Shown here: positions 1,215-61,120 of the stretch, one piece after another
Layout: every line of letters begins with the position of its first letter
Numbering within the stretch: position 1 is the first letter of the stretch
Source: an uncultured Alphaproteobacteria bacterium
GTDB taxonomy: Bacteria > Pseudomonadota > Alphaproteobacteria > HIMB59
Direction: 5' to 3'
NCBI GenBank assembly: GCA_902524245.1
Contig: CABZCN010000001.1
Span: forward strand, 124,001-188,000
Length of the DNA stretch: 64,000 bases
Notes under the pieces: model-generated
The model's input: the letters and a program-made list of their open reading frames with translations, nothing else
Database searches by the model: none
What the model was told of the DNA's origin: nothing
Made by a program: the position numbers and the translations under genes

Positions 1215-2799
1215 TTCTGGCTAAAACTTCCTCGTATTTAAAATAATCTTTATGAAATAGTAAAATTTTATTATCTAAAAATTTAGATTCTTTGTATCTG
1301 CCTAATTCATAATAAATTTGAGATAAATGATCTATTATTTCTGGCTCTGAGGGTTCAAGTTGATAAGCATCATAAATCCATTTTTCTGCCAAATCTAAGT
1401 TATCTTTCTTATAATAAAGCCATCCCAAACTATCAAGTATAGCCCCATCATTATAATTTGAGTCTTTTACTGCCTTTTGAAGCATACTTTCTGCAAGATC
1501 TAATTTTCTATCATTCTCTACCCATAAATATGCAAGATAATTTAATATATAAGGATATGAACTTTTAGATATATCAATACTTTTTTGGATAATTTCTTCG
1601 GCTTTTTTAATATCATTATTTCTCTCTAACAAAATACCATATTTAAAAAGATGAATTGCATCATCAGAATTCTCTATAATACTTATGCAACACTCGTTTA
1701 TAAAATCTAAAGCACCCCTATTATCATTTAAAAAGTACATTTCCATCGCAACAAGAAATGATAACTCTAGATTTATCCAATCATTATGATGATCACTATT
1801 ATTTATAAAATACACTAAGTCACTCATATCAGTGTCTAATTCAAATGATGTTGAGATATAAAGGTAGTTTTTAAAAAAATTAAAATTTTTGTCAGTTGGG
1901 TTAAAATTTTTAATTAATTTTAGTATTTCTTTACTTGGATTTAATTCTGCTAAAAATGAAATTTTTTTATAGAGATAATAATCTCTATTATCTGGATTTA
2001 TTTCGATTAAATAAGATAATAAAGCAAGTGCTTTTTTATACTCACGTGCATAAAAATAATAAGTGCTAGTTTGAAATAGTTGAAGATATATTATGTCTTC
2101 ATAATCCTTAACTACGTAATTTTTATCTAATTCAATAGACAAATTATTAAAAGTAGTTGATGACTGAATAAAATCTGAAAGTGGAAAATTGATGTTATGA
2201 TAATTGAAAATACTGTCCATTATATTTAATTCTTTAGAATTAAATATAGAGAGTGTTTCTATATTTGATGTTATTTCTTCATTAATTTTTTTTAAACTGT
2301 TGAGGTCTTTTTGATGATGATAATAATAAATAGTATTGATATATCTTAAATTTGTAAAGCGACTATCAATTTCATTCAAAATTTCTAAATTATTTTGAAC
2401 ATTGTGTTTATTACAAAAAGTCATCCAAAAATTTATGCTTTTTAATATAGCCTCTTCAAAAATATAAATTTGTTTTTTGTCAGGAATATTTAAGCATTTG
2501 TCATCACCTAGTTTCTTGAGAAAAAGAACAATTTCATGAATAAATCCACTTTCAGTTTCACTAATATTATCAAAAGTATAATTTCCTATAATAATATTAC
2601 TTAATAAGGTTGAAGTACGGTCATTTGAAAAATCATATTTAGGTAATTTTTCCCAAATTAAATAATCATTATTGTATTCAGAATAAATTGAACTTAGAAG
2701 TTGATTTTCGAAAGTATTTTTTAATTGAGACCCATATGCATATACAATAAATCCAAAAAAACATATAAAATATAAACTAAAAGATAATTTTTTAATCAT
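1201..2799 (-). CDS. Secreted or membrane-anchored TPR-repeat protein
   Basis: A 532-residue protein with a hydrophobic N-terminal signal or anchor segment (residues 4-22) followed by an all-helical domain. The C-terminal third (about residues 390-510) has consecutive 34-residue repeats with TPR spacing, for example DGAILDSLGWLYYKKDNLDL. Alphaproteobacteria often carry such a TPR protein next to ispE. TPR proteins act as scaffolds; the partner is unknown, and the envelope location is inferred from the N-terminus. The start codon interlocks with that of the divergent gene in a single CATG (2797-2800), so no separate promoter space exists. Confidence 0.82.
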   Translation of the reverse strand: MIKKLSFSLYFICFFGFIVYAYGSQLKNTFENQLLSSIYSEYNNDYLIWEKLPKYDFSNDRTSTLLSNIIIGNYTFDNISETESGFIHEIVLFLKKLGDDKCLNIPDKKQIYIFEEAILKSINFWMTFCNKHNVQNNLEILNEIDSRFTNLRYINTIYYYHHQKDLNSLKKINEEITSNIETLSIFNSKELNIMDSIFNYHNINFPLSDFIQSSTTFNNLSIELDKNYVVKDYEDIIYLQLFQTSTYYFYAREYKKALALLSYLIEINPDNRDYYLYKKISFLAELNPSKEILKLIKNFNPTDKNFNFFKNYLYISTSFELDTDMSDLVYFINNSDHHNDWINLELSFLVAMEMYFLNDNRGALDFINECCISIIENSDDAIHLFKYGILLERNNDIKKAEEIIQKSIDISKSSYPYILNYLAYLWVENDRKLDLAESMLQKAVKDSNYNDGAILDSLGWLYYKKDNLDLAEKWIYDAYQLEPSEPEIIDHLSQIYYELGRYKESKFLDNKILLFHKDYFKYEEVLARNENK

Positions 2800-3475
2800 G
2801 AATAACCAAGACTACCAAAAAAATATTCTTTTGGAATTGATGAATCTGGAGGAATTTCAAGTAAAAAAATCTCAAAATGACTCCGATAACCAAATAAATG
2901 TAGATATTATCAATAGTCCTAGCAAAGCCACCAGTATTGATCAAATAGAGGATTTTTTAAAAAATGAATTATTAAATTTAAATATTAATCAACCAATCAA
3001 TCTTGTAGAAGGTGATAAAAATTCGAAGATTTTATTTTTTTACGGTAAATGCGACATTAATGATGAAAAGATAATAGATAAAGCAAATGGTGAGTTATTC
3101 GATAAAATGCTTTCCTCCATAAAATTAGATAGGAAACAAATAAGCTTAGTGTCTTATATACCAAGGGGACTTAGTGAGTTTGATAATAACCACAAAATGA
3201 ATTCAATTTTACAACTTATCAATTATCGGTTGATTGAACTGATTAACCCAAAATATTTAATAATTATGTCAAATTATTGCATCAAAATGTTATTGGCTGC
3301 AGACTTGTCTTCCATGTCTCTTCGTGGAAAATGGTTTGATTTCAACACCCCGAATGACGTGGTACCCAAAAAATGCCGTGTGCTTTATGAGCCGTCTTTA
3401 TTAATAAACAATCCAGAACTTAAGAAGGATGCTTGGGAAGATTTAAAAGAAATTAGAAAGCAGCTTGGTGGATAA
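2798..3475 (+). CDS. Degenerate family-4-like uracil-DNA glycosylase homologue
   Basis: A 225-residue protein. Its second half follows the family-4 UDG fold in order: a loop where GEAPG is expected (here FFYGKCDIN, about residues 75-83), ELFDKML for the GKLLDKML helix, SYIPRG for NVVPWRP, INPKYLIIM, LRGKW, and YEPSLL where YHPAYL is normal. The active-site loop and the histidine of the last motif are altered, and the four cysteines that bind the Fe-S cluster in this family are missing. It is therefore probably inactive as a glycosylase, or has a changed role. The neighbourhood (lytic transglycosylase and moaB-like genes downstream) matches alphaproteobacterial family-4 UDG genes. An intact family-1 Ung is encoded at 61431. 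Confidence 0.68.
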   Translation: MNNQDYQKNILLELMNLEEFQVKKSQNDSDNQINVDIINSPSKATSIDQIEDFLKNELLNLNINQPINLVEGDKNSKILFFYGKCDINDEKIIDKANGELFDKMLSSIKLDRKQISLVSYIPRGLSEFDNNHKMNSILQLINYRLIELINPKYLIIMSNYCIKMLLAADLSSMSLRGKWFDFNTPNDVVPKKCRVLYEPSLLINNPELKKDAWEDLKEIRKQLGG

Positions 3476-5158
3476 ATGAGAATTATCGTTTTATTAATTG
3501 TAATGTTTTTTTACTCACAGAGTATCTTTGCTCTTAACTCTAAAGATATTGGCCTATACAAAAGTATTTTTAATGATTACAGAAATGGAAATTTTGATAA
3601 AGGTAATAAAGATATAGCAAAACTAGATGATTTAATTCTCATGGGTCATGTACAAGCTTTAAAACTTCTTCATCCAACAGCACATCGCTCTAGTTTTTTA
3701 GAGCTCCGAGATTGGTTGAGTGAATATAGTGATCATTACGAAGCTAAAAGGATTTATAAATTGGGAGTAAGAAGAATGCCAGATGGGGCAAAAAAACCAA
3801 AAAAAAATTCATACCCACTTTTTAATGAGATCTTTCAAAAAGATAAGTTACAAGAAACTGTTTCCACTAAATCAAATAAAATATTCTCAAATAAAAATTA
3901 CTCAAAAAAAATTAGTATTTATAATACTGTAAGATCAAGAGTTGGAAGAGGATGGCCTACTGGAGCATTAGAATATTTAAACCACCATATAAAAAATTTT
4001 AATCAAAAAGAAAAATCTTTTCTTCTTTCCAAAATTGCCAATGGCTACTACCTTGCAGATTTAGATGATAAGGCTATAAATGTTTTAAATGATGAAGCTT
4101 TCTTGAGTCAACCATACGATGAGGGCTTATGGATCAAAGGTCTCTCATATTATAGAAAAGGAAAATACCAAAAAGCCTCAAGACAGTTTTTAATACTCTC
4201 AAAAATTTCTGATAACAAATGGTTAAGGGATGCTGGTGCTTATTGGTCATTTTTATCCTCAACAAAAGATGCTAATGATGAAATTACTTTCAAAGCATCT
4301 TTAGAAGCTCTAAATAAATCTTGCAAACCAAGTTTTAATATATACTCAATTTTATCTTGTAGAATTTTAGATAAAACCATTCAAGACTTTGAATTTAATA
4401 CCTCATTAATGAGCTCAGATCTTGAGTCATTTTTAAATACCAAATTAGGTGAGAGGATTCAGGCATTAATTGAAATCAATGAACTTCCAATTGCAGAGAT
4501 AGAATTAAATAGACTTCAAAATATTACAAATGACAGGTTTAAAAGACTCATACTAAATTTTTCTATCAAAAATGATCTGAGTTCCTTGCAAATTAAAACA
4601 GCAAAATACTTGTTTAAAGATGATGCCCCGATAGATTTTTTATATCCAAATCCAAAATGGATACAAGATTACAATTTCAACAGTATTGACCCAACAATTA
4701 TTATTAGCATGATAAGACAAGAGTCGCAGTTTAGTGCTTTCGCAAAAAGTGGTAAAAGTGCATATGGATTGATGCAAATTCTTCCATCAACGGCTCGTAT
4801 GGTAAATAAAAAACATAAATTTAAGTCTAATCCAAGAATATTATATGATCCTGAAATTAATGTTGAGACAGGTAGCCTTTACCTTCAAAATTTATTATCT
4901 ATAAATTATATTAATGGAGATTTATTAAAGGCTTTAATTTCATATAATGCAGGGCCAGGAAATCTTTCAAAATGGATGAAAAAAACTACATTTAACGATG
5001 ATAGTTTTCTTTTAATTGAGTCTATACCTTCGAGAGAAACACGAATGTTTGTTGAGAGAGTTCTAACTAATCTTGTTATTTATGAATTAATAAATCATAA
5101 TTCATTCAATTATGCTGATGAACTTATAGCCACTAATACTATCTTGATTAATGATTGA
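3476..5158 (+). CDS. slt: Soluble lytic murein transglycosylase
   Basis: Periplasmic enzyme that cleaves peptidoglycan between MurNAc and GlcNAc with formation of 1,6-anhydro-MurNAc. The 560-residue product has a signal peptide (residues 1-19), a long alpha-superhelical region, and a C-terminal SLT domain. The catalytic glutamate lies in MIRQESQF (Glu about 416), followed by GLMQILPSTA and SYNAGPGN. It begins directly after the preceding stop codon and overlaps the next start by 8 bases, so it is co-transcribed with both neighbours. Confidence 0.92.
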   Translation: MRIIVLLIVMFFYSQSIFALNSKDIGLYKSIFNDYRNGNFDKGNKDIAKLDDLILMGHVQALKLLHPTAHRSSFLELRDWLSEYSDHYEAKRIYKLGVRRMPDGAKKPKKNSYPLFNEIFQKDKLQETVSTKSNKIFSNKNYSKKISIYNTVRSRVGRGWPTGALEYLNHHIKNFNQKEKSFLLSKIANGYYLADLDDKAINVLNDEAFLSQPYDEGLWIKGLSYYRKGKYQKASRQFLILSKISDNKWLRDAGAYWSFLSSTKDANDEITFKASLEALNKSCKPSFNIYSILSCRILDKTIQDFEFNTSLMSSDLESFLNTKLGERIQALIEINELPIAEIELNRLQNITNDRFKRLILNFSIKNDLSSLQIKTAKYLFKDDAPIDFLYPNPKWIQDYNFNSIDPTIIISMIRQESQFSAFAKSGKSAYGLMQILPSTARMVNKKHKFKSNPRILYDPEINVETGSLYLQNLLSINYINGDLLKALISYNAGPGNLSKWMKKTTFNDDSFLLIESIPSRETRMFVERVLTNLVIYELINHNSFNYADELIATNTILIND

Positions 5159-53996: not shown

Positions 53997-54657
53997 TTTT
54001 TTAATAACATTTTATTTTACAACAGCTGTTGTATTAATTATTTCTTTATTAGGCCTTCCCTTCAAATATACAAAATTTAGATTTTTTGTTCTTTTCTTTA
54101 CAAGGAACATGACAGTAATTTTAAAATTGTTTGGAATTAATATAGAAGTAATTAATTCTGATTTTGCTCACAAAAAGGGTTATCTCTATGCAAGTAAACA
54201 TCAGTCAATGTTTGAAACAATATACTTTAATGAACTCTTTTATAATCCTGCATATATTTTAAAAAAAGAATTATTGAATATTCCATTATTTGGGACCTAT
54301 CTTAAAAAATTGGGAATGATTGCTATTGATAGAAAGCAAGGAATCCATAGTCTTCGTTACGTAAATCAGCAAACAGCTGAATATTTAGATCATAGACCTG
54401 TAATAATTTTTCCCGAAGGAACCAGAACAACCTTTAAGGATCAACCTGATTTAAAACCTGGAATTTATTCTATGTACAAGTCTTTGAACAAGCCAGTTGT
54501 ACCTATTGCTTTAAATTCTGGAAAATTTTGGCCTAAAAATAATCAGGTTCATAAAGGCTCCATAACAGTAGAGTTTAAAGAACCGATACCTCCAGGGTTA
54601 AGCAAGCAAGAATTTTTAAATAAACTCAAAATGGAGATAAATAGCCTTAATCATTAG
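53986..54657 (+). CDS. plsC: 1-acyl-sn-glycerol-3-phosphate acyltransferase
   Basis: Makes phosphatidic acid. The 223-residue protein has N-terminal membrane helices, the catalytic block ASKHQSMFET (H-x4-D type, here with E), KKELLNIPLFG, and the substrate motif FPEGTRTTF. The usual H-x4-D box reads HQSMFE, an accepted variation in this family. It converges on tyrA with an 11-bp overlap. Confidence 0.9.
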   Translation: MKFSFLITFYFTTAVVLIISLLGLPFKYTKFRFFVLFFTRNMTVILKLFGINIEVINSDFAHKKGYLYASKHQSMFETIYFNELFYNPAYILKKELLNIPLFGTYLKKLGMIAIDRKQGIHSLRYVNQQTAEYLDHRPVIIFPEGTRTTFKDQPDLKPGIYSMYKSLNKPVVPIALNSGKFWPKNNQVHKGSITVEFKEPIPPGLSKQEFLNKLKMEINSLNH

Positions 54658-55543
54658 GAATAAACTTTCCTGCCTGTCTTGCTTTAACAATTCTATCTCT
54701 TACGTTTTTGGTCTTCTTTAATTTTGTTAATAAATTCTTAGAATTTCCCTGATTAAGGGTTTTAGAAAATTTTTTTAATTCACTTATGAAATTATTAGTT
54801 AATTTTTTAATTTGAGAATTATTTGCTAAAAATATATCCCTCCACATTTCTGGATCACTTCCTGCTACTCTAGTAAAGTCTCTAAATCCACCAGCAGAAA
54901 ATTTTACAAGCTTTGAATTAAGTGAAGATTCTTTTTTCATTGCCGTCAAAACTAATGAATAGGAAATTAAATGAGGCAAATGTGAAGTCAAGCTAAGCAC
55001 TTTATCATGTTCTTTTGCAGACATAATTTCTATTTTCATATTTAGTGACTTCCAAAACCTAACTATCTTATTGATGTTTGTCTTGGAAGATTTTTTTAAA
55101 GGACAAATAATATTATATCTATTTGTAAATAGTCCATCAAATCCATTCTCCAGTCCAGCTTTTTCAATACCCGCTATTGGGTGTGAGGGAATAAAATTAA
55201 ATTTATATTTTTTTTGATTATATAATTTTTCTATATTTACTTTTGTTGAGCCCACATCTGTAACAATTGCTTTATCTAAATTAATGTTGCTAAGTTTTTT
55301 GAATATAGATTGATACTGGAGCATAGGCACACAAATAATTATGAGATCAATATTTAAATTGTTGATTTCTTGAAGTGATTTCAAAACTTTTACATTGTTT
55401 AATTTTGATTTATTAATTCTAATTTTGAGGTTATTGGATTTATCAAAGGCAAAAATATTTACATTTTTGTATTTTTTAATTACTGATCTTGCTATTGATG
55501 ATCCAATCATTCCAAAACCAATTATGAGAATATTTTTAAACAT
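54647..55543 (-). CDS. tyrA: Prephenate/cyclohexadienyl dehydrogenase
   Basis: Tyrosine pathway enzyme of 298 residues. The NAD-binding loop is IIGFGMIGSSIARSV at the N-terminus, then DVGSTKVNI, SHPIAGIEKAG, and SHLPHLISYSL (His) and FRDFTRVAGSDPEMWRDIF. It lies 3' of hisC with an 8-base overlap, as in many alphaproteobacteria. Prephenate versus arogenate use cannot be told apart here. Confidence 0.93.
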   Translation of the reverse strand: MFKNILIIGFGMIGSSIARSVIKKYKNVNIFAFDKSNNLKIRINKSKLNNVKVLKSLQEINNLNIDLIIICVPMLQYQSIFKKLSNINLDKAIVTDVGSTKVNIEKLYNQKKYKFNFIPSHPIAGIEKAGLENGFDGLFTNRYNIICPLKKSSKTNINKIVRFWKSLNMKIEIMSAKEHDKVLSLTSHLPHLISYSLVLTAMKKESSLNSKLVKFSAGGFRDFTRVAGSDPEMWRDIFLANNSQIKKLTNNFISELKKFSKTLNQGNSKNLLTKLKKTKNVRDRIVKARQAGKFIPND

Positions 55544-56591
55544 TAAATTTATTGGCTGTTTTTACTGCCTTTTTCATGTCACTTTTTGTTCCAATGGTCA
55601 TCCTAACAAAATTATGTAATCCATATGATGACAATGATCTGACTGTAATTTTATTGGAGTGTAAAAAATCAACAAATTTTTGAGTTATTGATGAACTTTT
55701 AAACTTTAAAAGGATAAAATTGGCCTGAGTATCAATAGTTTCAAATAATTTGTTATTTAGACCTCTACAAGTAAGAGATTTGTTTACAGAATTATTTTTT
55801 ACAGAGTCATTAATCCATTTTTTATTTTTCAAAGACTCTTGGGCTGCAATGCATGACAATCTAGATACATTAAAAGGCTTTTTATATTGATAGAGTTGAG
55901 AAATAAGCTTTGAATTAGCGTATCCCCAACCTACTCTTAAGCCGCCTAGAGCAAATATTTTTGAAAAAGACCTTGTTATAATCAAATTAGAATATTTTTT
56001 AACTAATTGCATTCCATCTTCATATTTTTTATCTCTAATATATTCACAGTATGCTGAGTCTAATACAACAATTGTTTTTTTACTTAATTTATTTAAAAAT
56101 TTAATTAATTCATTTTTGTAAAAAATAGACCCTGTAGGATTATTGGGGTTAGCTAAAAAAACAATTTTTGTTTTTGAGCTGATCATTTTACTTAAATTTT
56201 CTAATTTAAATTGAAACTCTTTATCATCATATTTTTTTACTTTGCATCTAAAGTGTTTTGCATAGATTGAATACATAGCAAAAGCATATTTAGTAAAAAC
56301 GACTTCATCATTGGGTTTTGAAAAAGTAGCATATATCATTTGGAGAACTTCATCTGAGCCTGCACCTAATATAATTTGTTTATTATTTATTTTATAAGTT
56401 TTAGCAATTTGATTAATTAAACTCTCTCCATCAAGCTCAGGATAGATATTTGAAAATTTAATATTTTTTTTTATTAATGACTTTACAGATTTAGCTGGGC
56501 CATAGTTGTTCTCATTTGATGAAAGCCTTACATACCCTTTAAATACTTCTGCTCCACCCTTATAGATATTTTTTGGTTGGCTATTTTTCAT
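55536..56591 (-). CDS. hisC: Histidinol-phosphate aminotransferase
   Basis: Class II PLP aminotransferase of 351 residues. SSNENNYGP at the N-terminus, the cofactor lysine in ITRSFSKIFALGGLRVGWG (Lys about 213), GAGSDEVLQMI, and ANPNNPTG are visible. It can work on both histidinol-phosphate and aromatic amino acids; the link to tyrA suggests an aromatic role too. It faces metX across a 164-base gap that holds the riboswitch-like leader. Confidence 0.92.
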   Translation of the reverse strand: MKNSQPKNIYKGGAEVFKGYVRLSSNENNYGPAKSVKSLIKKNIKFSNIYPELDGESLINQIAKTYKINNKQIILGAGSDEVLQMIYATFSKPNDEVVFTKYAFAMYSIYAKHFRCKVKKYDDKEFQFKLENLSKMISSKTKIVFLANPNNPTGSIFYKNELIKFLNKLSKKTIVVLDSAYCEYIRDKKYEDGMQLVKKYSNLIITRSFSKIFALGGLRVGWGYANSKLISQLYQYKKPFNVSRLSCIAAQESLKNKKWINDSVKNNSVNKSLTCRGLNNKLFETIDTQANFILLKFKSSSITQKFVDFLHSNKITVRSLSSYGLHNFVRMTIGTKSDMKKAVKTANKFNV

Positions 56592-56673
56592 AATTTTTTG
56601 ATAATAAATAAACTATATAAAGAAAATATCATCATTTTATATTGAAAATTAATCCAAAAAGCCTTAAATTCCA

Positions 56674-56730
56674 GTTTCACCGATTTGATAGCAGCTTGCG
56701 GGTGTAAAACAGCTAAAGCGTATCTCCCGC
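56674..56730 (+). promoter_or_regulatory. Candidate SAM-II/SAM-V-type riboswitch upstream of metX
   Basis: In the 5' leader of metX, CACC (56678-56681) can pair with GGTG (56701-56704), enclosing a loop with GATTTG. The 3' side has AGCTAAAGCG (56711-56720), like the conserved AGCTAAA block of SAM-II. GCTT (56694-56697) can pair with AAGC (56716-56719) as a pseudoknot. A competing hairpin, GCGGG (56698-56702) with CCCGC (56726-56730), shares the same bases as the first stem. A methionine gene downstream supports a SAM sensor. The class is a guess from memory of motifs. Confidence 0.6.
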
Positions 56731-56755
56731 AGTTATCTTTCGAACAGGTTTAAAA

Positions 56756-57877
56756 ATGAGAGAAATAATTGCAAATACTGAATATCCAGGTTTCTTACTG
56801 AAATGCCAAGAAGAGCTACCATTGGACTCTGGTAAAAAAATTAAGAATTTTCAAATCGCTTATCAAACATATGGAAGTCTTAATGCTCAAAAAAATAATG
56901 CAATTTTAGTTTGTCATGCATTAACTGGTGATCAATTCCCTGCAGAGGAAAATCCTATAACTAAAAAAAATGGATGGTGGGAATTAATGATTGGACCCGA
57001 TAAGCCTATTGATACGAATAAATACTTTGTTATCTGCTCTAATGTTCTTGGGGGCTGTGTTGGAACGACAGGTCCTAATGATACTAATCCTGATACCTCA
57101 AAAATATATGGTTTAGATTTTCCTACCATAACGATTAGAGATATGGTGAGAGTACAAAAAATACTTGTTGATGAGCTTGGAATATCCAAATTGCTTTCTG
57201 TAGCAGGTGGTTCAATGGGTGCAATGCAAGTTCTACAATGGGCTGCTACTTATCCGGAGAGTGTAAGGTCTATTATGAGTATAGCAGGTTCATTGAAACA
57301 CTCTGCCCAAAATATTGCATTTGACGAGGCAGGAAGGCAATCCATTATGTTGGATCCTAATTGGCAAAATGGAAGATATTTGGAGAGTAATGAAAAACCT
57401 GAGAATGGTCTCTCTGTTGCAAGAATGATAGCTCATATTACTTACTTATCTGAGAAAGCTTTTCAAAATAAATTTGGTCGAAATTTACAAGAAAAAAATG
57501 ATTTATCTTTTGGCTTTGGAATAGACTTTCAGGTCGAAAGTTATCTTCGTTATCAAGGTAGATCTTTTGTTGATCGATTTGATGCTAATAGCTATCTATA
57601 TATGACTCGAGCAATGGATTATTTTGACGTGAAAGATGAAATTATTGCAAATAAAAAAACTATAATTGATAATTCGATCCGATTTCTAGTTTTATCATTT
57701 ACCAGTGATTGGCTATTTCCAACAAAAGAGTCAAGAGAGATAGTATCTATATTAAATTCTATTGGGTCCAATGTTAGTTTTGCTGAAGTCGTATCAGATA
57801 GAGGTCACGATAGTTTTTTATTAGATGAGCCACAATTTTTTAAAGTTGCTCAGGGATTTTTAAAGGGAATAAAATGA
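56756..57877 (+). CDS. metX: Homoserine O-acetyltransferase (MetX)
   Basis: Alpha/beta-hydrolase enzyme that acylates homoserine for methionine synthesis. The 373-residue product has [23 protein letters not shown], the nucleophile in [13 protein letters not shown] (Ser about 153), [11 protein letters not shown], and the late Asp and His in SDWLFP and RGHDSF. The sequence is uninterrupted and typical over its length. An internal 124-bp piece (codons about 237-277) is duplicated in reverse orientation in metW downstream. Acetyl and succinyl donors cannot be separated here. Confidence 0.95.
57464..57587 (+). repeat. 124-bp inverted repeat, source copy in metX
   Basis: This stretch of metX is an exact reverse complement of 58317-58440; I compared the two copies base by base and found no difference. 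The coding of this copy (from the FGRNLQ region through SFVDRFDA) is canonical for MetX, so it is the original. Confidence 0.93.
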
Positions 57878-58401
57878 GAAAAGACTATGAGATCATTTTA
57901 AATTTAATTCCAGAAAACTCAAAGGTGTTGGATATTGGTTGTTCTGATGGAGAGCTAATCACTTACTTAGAAAATAAAGGAATAAGTGCTCAAGGTGTGG
58001 AATTGAGTCAAGAAAAAGTAATCAAATGTTTGGAAAAAGGATTAGATGTAATACACGGTGATATAAATTTAATAGTTGAAGATTTTCCATTTAATCAATT
58101 CGATTATTGTCTTTTGACTCAGACAATTCAGGCAGTTCAAGAACCAGACCAATTATTAAACACCCTCAAAAAAGTAAGTAAAAATATCATTGTGAGCTTT
58201 AATAATTCGGCACGTCTGAGTAAAATTTCAAATTTTCTTTTAACAGGAAGTTTTGACTCACTTTTAAAAAAAGCAAATAGTGATCACTGGTATAATACTG
58301 ATTATATTCACCCATGTAGCATCAAATCGATCAACAAAAGATCTACCTTGATAACGAAGATAACTTTCGACCTGAAAGTCTATTCCAAAGCCAAAAGATA
58401 A
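57874..58401 (+). CDS. metW: Methionine biosynthesis protein MetW, C-terminal end replaced
   Basis: Small SAM-binding methyltransferase-fold protein that partners MetX in alphaproteobacteria. It has [20 protein letters not shown] (SAM loop), [25 protein letters not shown], and [13 protein letters not shown]. Up to Cys 148 it is normal MetW. Residues 149-175 come from the inverted metX copy, and the frame stops at 58401 inside it. About 35-40 residues of true MetW have been lost, and a remnant of the normal tail follows the repeat. The protein is probably defective unless this is an assembly error. It overlaps metX by 4 bases. Confidence 0.85.
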
Positions 58402-58440
58402 ATCATTTTTTTCTTGTAAATTTCGACCAAATTTATTTTG
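58317..58440 (-). repeat. 124-bp inverted repeat, inserted copy in metW
   Basis: Reverse complement of metX 57464-57587, without mismatch. It starts at the codon after HPC of metW and ends where metW-like coding resumes ([11 protein letters not shown] at 58442). Neither end has target-site duplications or transposon ends. The flanks match the opposite copy by only a few bases. It looks like a template-switch replacement, or an artefact of assembly or amplification. Confidence 0.93.
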
Positions 58441-58441
58441 T

Positions 58442-58477
58442 AAAGAAGTTCTCTTCCATATTACTAATGAACAATAA
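58442..58477 (+). pseudogene. metW: Remnant of the metW 3' end
   Basis: After the inverted repeat, the plus strand reads [11 protein letters not shown] and a TAA at 58475-58477, in a frame shifted by one from the start of metW. This looks like the normal MetW C-terminus, which usually ends with a hydrophobic strand a few residues before the stop. It also overlaps the ATG of the next gene (58467), as expected of the original operon. This remnant shows that a replacement, not a simple 3' deletion, has occurred. Confidence 0.6.
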
Positions 58478-58823
58478 AAATATAATTTTTGTCTATAACG
58501 CCAAAGGTGGTAAATGGAACTATATTCTTGATACAGTCCATAAATATGCCTCCCCCAGCACTTATGATTGCAATTTATGTAAAATTACTCACGACCTGAA
58601 AATGCGCGAGTCGTGGAAGAAATTTATAGAGAGCTCACCACATAATTTTAAGTTTTTACATTCAGAAGAATTGGAAGAATTTAATCTTCTAAATTACAAA
58701 GATGAACTACCTATATGTCTTGAGGAAAAAGAGGGTAAATACAAATTATTGATAGATAATAAACAAATGAATGAATTTAAAAATGAATTTGAATTAATCA
58801 ATATTTTAGAAAAGATATTATAA
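58467..58823 (+). CDS. Conserved small protein with C-x-x-C motif
   Basis: A 118-residue protein with no signal or membrane segment. [30 protein letters not shown] is the most striking part: a hydrophobic strand, a helix and a C-x-x-C motif (about residues 35-38), followed by [17 protein letters not shown] recall similar proteins in bacteria with this YNA...CNLC layout but no settled function. The C-x-x-C could bind metal or act in redox. It ends 6 bp inside the convergent sulfite-exporter-like gene. Confidence 0.6.
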
Positions 58824-59570
58824 ACCGACTAAACCCAAATAAATTAATCGAAGCGAGCCTATCACTACAAAAATATTAATAATGGTAAAAAAAGAATTAT
58901 CTGAAAGTTTACTATTCATCCAGTGTCCCAAAATTACTCCTATTATTGCAATTGGTGAAAAAATTAAATAACTATATAACTTCTCAAAGTTTAATATTTC
59001 CAAATAGAAATACGGGATTAATTTAAATAAATTTATTAAAGCAATAGAAAAAACTACGCCTGCAACAAACTGCACTTTTTTATTATAAATTGACATAAAA
59101 TATATATTTAATGGCAATCCTCCAGAGTGGAGTACAAAACTAGTAAACCCCGCTAGTGCTCCCCAAAAAGATTTACTTCCATAAAAGGGTATTTTTTTTA
59201 AATTTCTATTGTCTGCGATTAAGTAATTAAGCAAAACATATAGTAAGGAAATTGATCCAATAAAAATACTTATCATTGATAAATTGATAAATTTAAACAA
59301 GATTGTTCCAATAATTACCCCTAATAAAGAATATGGTGCAATTGACCATAAAATTTTATATTCAAAATGTTTTTTATTTAAAAACAAAGCAATTACATCA
59401 CATACAATTAACATTGGCATTAATATAGCTATTGCAGTTAAAGGACCATAAGTTATGGATAATAGGGTTACTGAAATTAAAGCCAATCCACCCCCGGAAA
59501 AACCTGATTTTGAAATTGCAAATAGAAGAATAGAAAAAGAAACTATTAAGTAATAACTAATATCTATCAA
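58818..59570 (-). CDS. TauE/SafE (TSUP) family anion exporter
   Basis: A 250-residue protein with about eight helices. The first repeat has SGFSGGGLALISVTLL (about residues 22-37), and the second GALAGFTSFVLHSGGLPLNIYF, as expected of the duplicated TauE fold. Members export sulfite, sulfoacetate or related organosulfur anions. The substrate is unknown here. It forms a minus-strand pair with the methyltransferase gene 40 bases upstream. Confidence 0.88.
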   Translation of the reverse strand: MIDISYYLIVSFSILLFAISKSGFSGGGLALISVTLLSITYGPLTAIAILMPMLIVCDVIALFLNKKHFEYKILWSIAPYSLLGVIIGTILFKFINLSMISIFIGSISLLYVLLNYLIADNRNLKKIPFYGSKSFWGALAGFTSFVLHSGGLPLNIYFMSIYNKKVQFVAGVVFSIALINLFKLIPYFYLEILNFEKLYSYLIFSPIAIIGVILGHWMNSKLSDNSFFTIINIFVVIGSLRLIYLGLVGL

Positions 59571-59610
59571 TAATTTATCCTATATTTTAAAATCTCAATA
59601 TAAATTAATA

Positions 59611-60318
59611 TTAAGTCGGCACAAAATTTTTAATAGGTATTTTTTTTTGTTTTTTTGAACTCTTCGCGTAAACAATCTTTTTACATACGCAAATCATTAG
59701 CCCTCCCATATAAGGAAAAAATAATTTACCTATTTTTTCAATTGTTCGATGTGATTTGTAATTTAAATAATGACTCCATGGAGGAAAGTGCAAAAATGTT
59801 TTTCTATAATCAAGAACCAAAAAGTCTTGTATTAGTGATTTAAATTGCTTATTTGAGTATGATCGACCAAACCCAAAAGGATTGTTATCATACCGAGTCC
59901 ATATACCTGACCTTCTGGGAATAATTGATAAAAATAAACCGTTTGGCTTAAGTATTCTCCATATTTCTTCAATACTACTCTGGGGCTTATCAACGAACTC
60001 AAGCAAATGAGTAGATATTACCACATCAACTGAACTTGGATCCAAAGGTAAGAAATATTCATGTATTATTTGGTGTTCGAAATCGTATTTCTCTTTAACA
60101 TTACCATCTAAAAATTCTGGTTGCATAGAGGATATTTGTAAATTTTTATTTTGCTTACTAAGAAAAGAAAGAAAAGGGTTTGTATAACCATATCCACAAA
60201 TAACACTATCGTTTACAGAATTTAAATGGGTGTTTAATTGATGACGTATGTTACGTTTAACAATAGTGCCTAGTCTTGAATTATAAAAACTATAAATATC
60301 GGATGCGTTGATATCCAT
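59611..60318 (-). CDS. Class I SAM-dependent methyltransferase
   Basis: A 235-residue protein with a methyltransferase fold: VICGYGYTNPFL in motif I place, SSMQPEFLD, DVVISTHLLEFVDKPQSSIEEIWRILKPNG (motifs II-III). The glycine-rich motif is weak (GYGYTNP). Alphaproteobacteria usually place such a gene divergent from gloB, as here, 40 bases away. Substrate unknown. Confidence 0.85.
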   Translation of the reverse strand: MDINASDIYSFYNSRLGTIVKRNIRHQLNTHLNSVNDSVICGYGYTNPFLSFLSKQNKNLQISSMQPEFLDGNVKEKYDFEHQIIHEYFLPLDPSSVDVVISTHLLEFVDKPQSSIEEIWRILKPNGLFLSIIPRRSGIWTRYDNNPFGFGRSYSNKQFKSLIQDFLVLDYRKTFLHFPPWSHYLNYKSHRTIEKIGKLFFPYMGGLMICVCKKIVYAKSSKKQKKIPIKNFVPT

Positions 60319-60358
60319 AGTTGTATTTTAACGAGATTTACATAACATTCTATTTCTT

Positions 60359-61120
60359 ATGCAAAAACCTAATGTGTATTTGTTTCCTCAATTAGATGAT
60401 AACTATGGATATCTAATTAAAAATCCTCACGAAACAAAAGGAGTGCTAGTTGATCCCTCAGATCTAGATATGTGTTTGAAGATTCTTGAGCTAAATGATT
60501 GCAGTGCTTCTCACATAATCATTACACATCATCACGATGATCACATTAATGCTGTTGATGAAATTAAATCAAGATTTAAATCTTTAGTCATAGGGTACAA
60601 AAATGACTCCAAAATACCAAAACCAGATAAAGAAGTTGAAGATCAGGAAATTTTTGAGATACATGGAAATGAATATAAAGTCATACATACTCCTGGGCAT
60701 ACGCTTCAACACATAAATTATTTTATGCTAAAACATAATATTTTATTTTCTGGGGATACTCTATTTAGCATTGGATGTGGAAGAATGTTTGAGGGAAATC
60801 CTGAAGTTTTTTGGAACAGTTTGTCTAAGTTAAAACAATTACCTGAAGATACAAAAGTATATTGTGGGCATGAATATACGATGGCTAATTTAAAATTCGC
60901 CTTAAACATAGACCCTGATAATGAAAAGCTTAATGAATATTATAAATGGGCCTCACATCAAGAAAAAGAGCATCGACCAACAATTCCAACAACTCTCTCA
61001 GACCAATTGTTATGTAATCCATTTTTGAGATGTGACACAGATCAATTTATGAAATTTTTTGACACGCAAGATGCAACAGAGGTATTTGCTAAAATGCGCT
61101 CTGCAAAGGATAATTTCTAG
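60359..61120 (+). CDS. gloB: Hydroxyacylglutathione hydrolase (glyoxalase II)
   Basis: Hydrolyses S-lactoylglutathione to lactate and glutathione. The 253-residue metallo-beta-lactamase-fold protein has the metal motif THHHDDHI, HTPGHTLQHINYF, FSGDTLFSIGCGRMFEG and CGHEYTMANLKFA, and ends with the C-terminal glutathione-binding domain (LCNPFLRC). It lies upstream of a small gene with the same strand. Confidence 0.94.
   Translation: MQKPNVYLFPQLDDNYGYLIKNPHETKGVLVDPSDLDMCLKILELNDCSASHIIITHHHDDHINAVDEIKSRFKSLVIGYKNDSKIPKPDKEVEDQEIFEIHGNEYKVIHTPGHTLQHINYFMLKHNILFSGDTLFSIGCGRMFEGNPEVFWNSLSKLKQLPEDTKVYCGHEYTMANLKFALNIDPDNEKLNEYYKWASHQEKEHRPTIPTTLSDQLLCNPFLRCDTDQFMKFFDTQDATEVFAKMRSAKDNF

Follow-up and report, generated by a model that had tools for sequence, protein, structure and literature searches.

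MetW is a methionine biosynthesis protein with a role beside MetX. In the stretch of alphaproteobacterial DNA analysed here (64 kb, hereafter the window), the end of metW is occupied by an inverted copy of part of the neighbouring metX. The closest described counterparts are the chimeras made during whole-genome amplification with phi29 polymerase and the template-switch mutations associated with quasipalindromes. According to excerpts of a study of MDA from a single E. coli cell, inverted chimeras numbered 406 out of 475, and in 337 of these the joined segments lay within 10 kb of each other; most chimeras were primed by 2–21 complementary nucleotides, and about one junction arose per 22 kb (PMC1855051). 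A larger chimera set, as given in extracts of the report, spans distances from 0 to more than 5000 nt with overlaps mostly of 5–8 nt, and chimeras with two switches made up 2–3% of the chimeric read pairs in two samples (564,397 of 24,595,400 and 445,861 of 15,664,038; PMC4595205). Inverted forms predominate in single-cell data too (PMC6515389, in part), and the excerpted portion of a comparison of WGA-X with MDA gives no difference in read-level chimeras (PMC5519541).

At quasipalindromes, out-and-back switching between inverted matches likewise replaces a local stretch with an inverted copy, as set out in passages of PMC7202029 and, at short range in great apes, of PMC7954356. In these partial accounts such mutations arise at pre-existing imperfect inverted repeats (PMC7202029, PMC7954356). 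The locus described here differs: when exact matches are compared, the sequence of a relative (G014) shows correspondence along the arms at their two ends only, and not a prior imperfect inverted repeat. The matching ends measure 10 and 13 nt, the arms are separated by 729 nt, and the copied foreign stretch is 101 nt long. Quasipalindrome template switches are typically of sizes unlike this spacing and this copied length.

The inverted metX segment in metW

The donor gene, metX (56756–57877, + strand), belongs to the homoserine O-acetyltransferase family and is an intact open reading frame (ORF) of 373 amino acids that scores 518.5 bits against NF001209 (cut-off 331). The metW ORF starts inside its 3' end, at 57874. 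Bases 57464–57587 of metX (+ strand) equal the reverse complement of 58317–58440, in metW, at 124 of 124 positions, confirming the exact inverted recurrence reported in a preliminary description of this DNA. The donor segment itself shows 0 differences from G014 over the 124 nt. If one mismatch is allowed, the arms reach 129 nt (57459–57587 and 58317–58445), with the 729 nt between them. The three other inverted pairs of at least 30 nt listed for the whole window are short (31–50 nt), AT-rich and 74–84% complementary, which excludes chance as the source of the 124-nt repeat.

We aligned the window with 24 metW loci from relatives, a set drawn from 33 loci by leaving out the window's own (L001–L003 and L010) and the more distant L029–L033. 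The window tracks native metW to 58326 and again from 58428. Between these points, 94 nt of native metW have given way to 101 nt of inverted metX (58327–58427, - strand), so the segment is a replacement and not an insertion, as had been proposed. Its extent, previously placed at 58317–58440, is narrower than first thought. With the relative's locus L005 as reference, the outer 10 nt on the left (58317–58326, + strand; TAGCATCAAA) and the outer 13 nt on the right (58428–58440, + strand; CAAATTTATTTTG) occur in native metW as well as in inverted metX, leaving 58327–58427 as foreign. Past the right-hand microhomology the native tail of metW (58441–58477, + strand) resumes in another frame from that of the truncated ORF and runs to the native stop at 58477, in agreement with the earlier account; 58441–58480 is identical to G014.

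It follows from the replacement that MetW is truncated, as had also been stated. Comparison of the translations, again with L005 as reference, shows that the ORF at 57874–58401 (+ strand) encodes 175 residues, 151 native and 24 foreign, whereas MetW of the relative has 198. Residues 1–151 are identical to the relative's intact protein, and the last 47 residues are lost. Likeness to the MetW family (TIGR02081, PF07021) therefore lies in the first 151 residues, and the difference in the exchange of the last 47 for 24 foreign ones. The TIGR02081 match ends at 153 of 194 in the window, short of a full-length domain, compared with 193 of 194 in the intact relative; the scores, 136.2 and 156.1 bits, both fall below the curated cut-off of 189.5.

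This anatomy points to a pair of template switches primed by microhomology, one leaving the template and one returning to it. The 10- and 13-nt microhomologies at the ends support this interpretation, and with it the earlier suggestion of template switching. A horizontal or mobile insertion is ruled out, since the foreign piece copies the gene next door exactly and native DNA has been replaced.

Just upstream of metX is a SAM-II-like leader (56673–56731, + strand). Its scores are sub-threshold both for SAM-II (13.2 bits; gathering score 44) and for SAM_alpha (11.5 bits; gathering score 36), and a search of 54000–61000 with Rfam at gathering scores gave no match. Across the window and 34 aligned loci there is nevertheless almost no variation in the core of the leader, CACCGATTTGAT.GCAGCTTGC.GGTGTA.AAA.AGCTAAAGCGT. 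From its sequence, the leader may be a diverged member of the SAM riboswitches, left unscored by Rfam.

Distribution among relatives and along the genome

Of the 52 genomes of the genus that were searched, a single assembly has the inverted patch. Searches for the 27-nt first junction and the 31-nt second junction, each with up to three mismatches allowed, located them in the window's own genome (1 of 52) and in none of the other 51. The first junction had 0 exact matches in viral_contigs, where little was expected. When the intact MetW of the relative was used as a query, 40 of the 52 genomes gave a match. In 38 of the 51 other genomes metW extends over 195–198 of the 198 residues without internal stops, and in G029, a single contig, it covers 198 of 198; the match in the window's own genome covers 170. 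None of the 12 genomes lacking a match is at least 90% complete, and every one of the 10 genomes that are (the window's included) has one, so metW looks core for the genus. Because 12 genomes have no metW match at all, about 38 of the 51 are informative about the junctions. The locus is conserved at the DNA level among several relatives, with identical runs of up to 577 nt. A shared or old feature of the clade is unsupported, given that 0 of the 51 other genomes carry the junctions.

The MetW match in G069 is partial and lies at a contig start. That contig begins inside metW, at residue 111 (G069:C9:3-263; L070 3-113), a point that does not coincide with the junctions described above.

The window aligns with G014 as one piece of 64,004 columns at 97.6% identity, with 8 indels, 4 of them at the inverted patch; the defect is isolated, the rest of the window being colinear with the relative. 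Tiles of 60 nt that fall below 75% identity to all three of G014, G004 and G007 occur only within 58301–58440. Compared with these three relatives, the window has no other defect of this sort.

We also searched for similar structures beyond the window. Further stretches of the same genome (314 kb, n = 20) contained no inverted repeat of at least 30 nt at 90% identity, and 400 kb of G029 contained none either. About 2.14 Mb of other stretches, largely from the same genus, held one inverted match only, of 31 nt at 90% (L180). That collection comprises five sets from same-genus genomes and 37 named loci, with some stretches overlapping; it includes L068 and L069, whose MetW reaches only 36–38% and which we take to lie outside the genus, and single-cell origin is not established for every source. 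Self-overlapping palindromes were omitted from the repeat counts for the 314 kb and the 2.14 Mb, and a search of the comparison genomes at stricter identity returned three 30-nt self-palindromes and six direct repeats. We conclude that the event is singular twice over: no searched relative has it, and it is unrepeated in the stretches of the genome that were seen.

The idea of a genome rich in such chimeras is rejected, there being none more in 314 kb of it. This test gives no help to a reading of the patch as an artefact, since the comparison stretches are also empty but for the L180 match. The scarcity in the 314 kb and the 2.14 Mb indicates that assemblies of this type seldom contain such chimeras.

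Elsewhere in the window, a one-base deletion relative to three relatives lies at 3475, at the joint of two adjacent genes whose ORFs (2798–3475 and 3476–5158) are both open. In the locus of AG-896-E11 (L050) that is homologous to 54500–56500, about 2 kb next to metX differ from the window by up to 91 positions per 300 nt, between flanks nearly identical to it. On sequence grounds, this divergent part, which spans the two genes upstream of metX, looks like a product of recombination.

Origin of the exchange

The genus, probably HIMB59/AEGEAN-169, is sampled mainly by single amplified genomes (SAGs), and the window's assembly fits that type. A contig scan of one genome per species gave 37 loci, 32 of them from AG-numbered genomes and the other five from MAGs; many AG-numbered genomes are labelled MAG in their titles all the same. 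Excerpts of PMC10308909 term one member with an AG number a SAG and describe the AEGEAN-169/HIMB59 clade using GORG-Tropics SAGs. The window's genome consists of 21 contigs, all longer than 2000 bp and the shortest 2,067 bp, and the single-cell pipeline, as outlined in part of PMC5519541, retains contigs above 2000 bp and normalises k-mer depth before assembly. We infer that the genome is a SAG. Chimerism in another sense, the presence of foreign DNA, affects SAGs less than MAGs according to an extract of PMC11247762.

Our preferred explanation, which we consider probable, is a two-switch inverted chimera made by a phi29-type polymerase during single-cell whole-genome amplification (MDA or WGA-X) and kept by the assembler. 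The event itself probably took place in vitro. Also in favour are the confinement of both junctions to this assembly among the 52 genomes, the near-full-length metW of 38 others and the colinearity of the rest of the window with a relative. The inverted source lies well inside the 10 kb noted for MDA chimeras (729 nt between the arms), and the overlaps of 10 and 13 nt fall within the range of 2–21 complementary nucleotides. Inverted MDA chimeras, two-switch or '2-level' ones among them, as portrayed in excerpts of PMC1855051 and PMC4595205, share with this locus an inverted source within a few kb and complementary overlap at the junctions, and more than one switch per molecule is known in them. 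Here, however, the second switch returns nearly in register to the first template (94 nt exchanged for 101), the chimeric product has become part of an assembled contig, and the overlaps exceed the 5–8 nt that are usual in the available part of PMC4595205. The feature fits the class of MDA chimeras, with overlaps at the long end.

In the course we envisage, the growing 3' end would leave its template during synthesis of the metW sense strand, just after making TAGCATCAAA. Once free, it would anneal through these 10 nt to their complement within metX on a displaced sense strand, the arms being 729 nt apart. Backward copying of metX would follow until the 3' end detached again and re-annealed to the first template through 13 nt (CAAATTTATTTTG), from where synthesis would continue. 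The event could equally well have run in mirror image on the other strand. The positions of both switches are explained by strong annealing sites. Apart from the 13-mer, no inverted exact match in 2.3 kb of the G014 locus reaches 13 nt, and the 10- and 13-nt matches are the only pair of their kind there, by criteria chosen after the event was seen; at least one such pair occurred in 8 of 200 simulated sequences. A double switch that comes back to its own template would give the assembly graph a bypass of nearly equal length, and this may explain why the chimera survived in the contig.

Several observations sit uneasily with an amplification chimera. Similar repeats are scarce in the 314 kb of the same genome and the 2.14 Mb of other stretches, and the great rarity of comparable repeats in other assemblies weakens the case for a general in vitro cause. 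A double switch at the same place is a minority form (2–3% of chimeric read pairs) and the overlaps are longer than usual, in both respects as excerpted from PMC4595205. Misassemblies tended to be fewest in SAGs of small Prochlorococcus genomes (PMC5519541, in part), and the status of the window's genome as a SAG is itself a deduction.

The preliminary description had allowed for a chimera of either assembly or amplification, and of these the amplification form fits best. A pure misjoin in the assembly graph, with no chimeric DNA molecule behind it, would have to happen twice, on overlaps of 10 and 13 nt, and the 101-nt segment can be spanned by short reads. Assembler k-mers are usually longer than 10 and 13 nt. 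The likely workflow does have reported misassemblies, 1.5 per 100 kb on three bacterial benchmark cultures in the excerpted results (PMC8443664, PMC11247762), but two misjoins of this sort strike us as highly implausible.

The anatomy of the patch is not decisive between amplification and a natural event, because a real allele would look alike: a double switch in vivo would leave the same structure. On that account, a replicating nascent strand in the cell or its clone switched within metX–metW very recently and returned, destroying the C-terminus of MetW with no further function. The standing of the 13-nt match as the only one of its length in the relative's locus favours such a mutation as well, as does the rarity of comparable repeats in other assemblies, which are largely of the same genus and in many cases single-cell. 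Such a mutation must be set against the absence of the junctions from the other genus genomes searched (0 of 51) and the damage done to a gene that looks core, since all 10 genomes with a completeness of 90% or more, the window's included, have a match to it. That the copy has not diverged from its source is a weaker objection. Fourfold divergence from G014 is 7.1% (431 of 6079 sites), and half of this value over 101 free sites gives 3.6 changes expected over the whole branch; the probability of 0 changes is 0.03 for an event at the start of the branch and 0.27 for one of uniform age. Dating by divergence is thus too weak to decide, and overall we regard a genuine recent mutation as unlikely.

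Far less credible is a real allele kept for function, in which the metXW mRNA folds into a 124-bp duplex that silences metX, the self-antisense arrangement proposed in the preliminary description. One metXW transcript is plausible, since metW starts inside the end of metX, and the predicted fold, at -351.5 kcal/mol, is very stable beside those of 20 shuffled sequences, which average -193.9 (sd 6.8). However, equal folding is expected of any perfect 124-nt inverted repeat. The arrangement is also unconserved among the genomes searched (0 of 51 others) and sacrifices part of MetW. Nothing speaks for the masking of metX beyond the self-pairing of the sequence.

Meaning for the locus and the genus

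The most likely origin of the inverted patch is an amplification chimera, not a biological feature. The locus would then be a worked example of a two-switch amplification chimera standing unmarked in a contig that is long and in other respects clean, from a genome that represents its species. Such a chimera can mimic a gene truncation together with a regulatory hairpin. A simple screen for exact inverted repeats of at least 40 nt that lie within a few kb of each other, are bounded by microhomology and are absent from relatives would flag such cases.

It seems to us improbable that metW of a streamlined marine bacterium has just been broken by a natural double switch over 729 nt, primed by the longest inverted microhomology in the region, and that its metXW mRNA has thereby gained a 124-bp hairpin. 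Were the allele real, it would be a record of natural long-range template switching in a core-looking gene of the genus.
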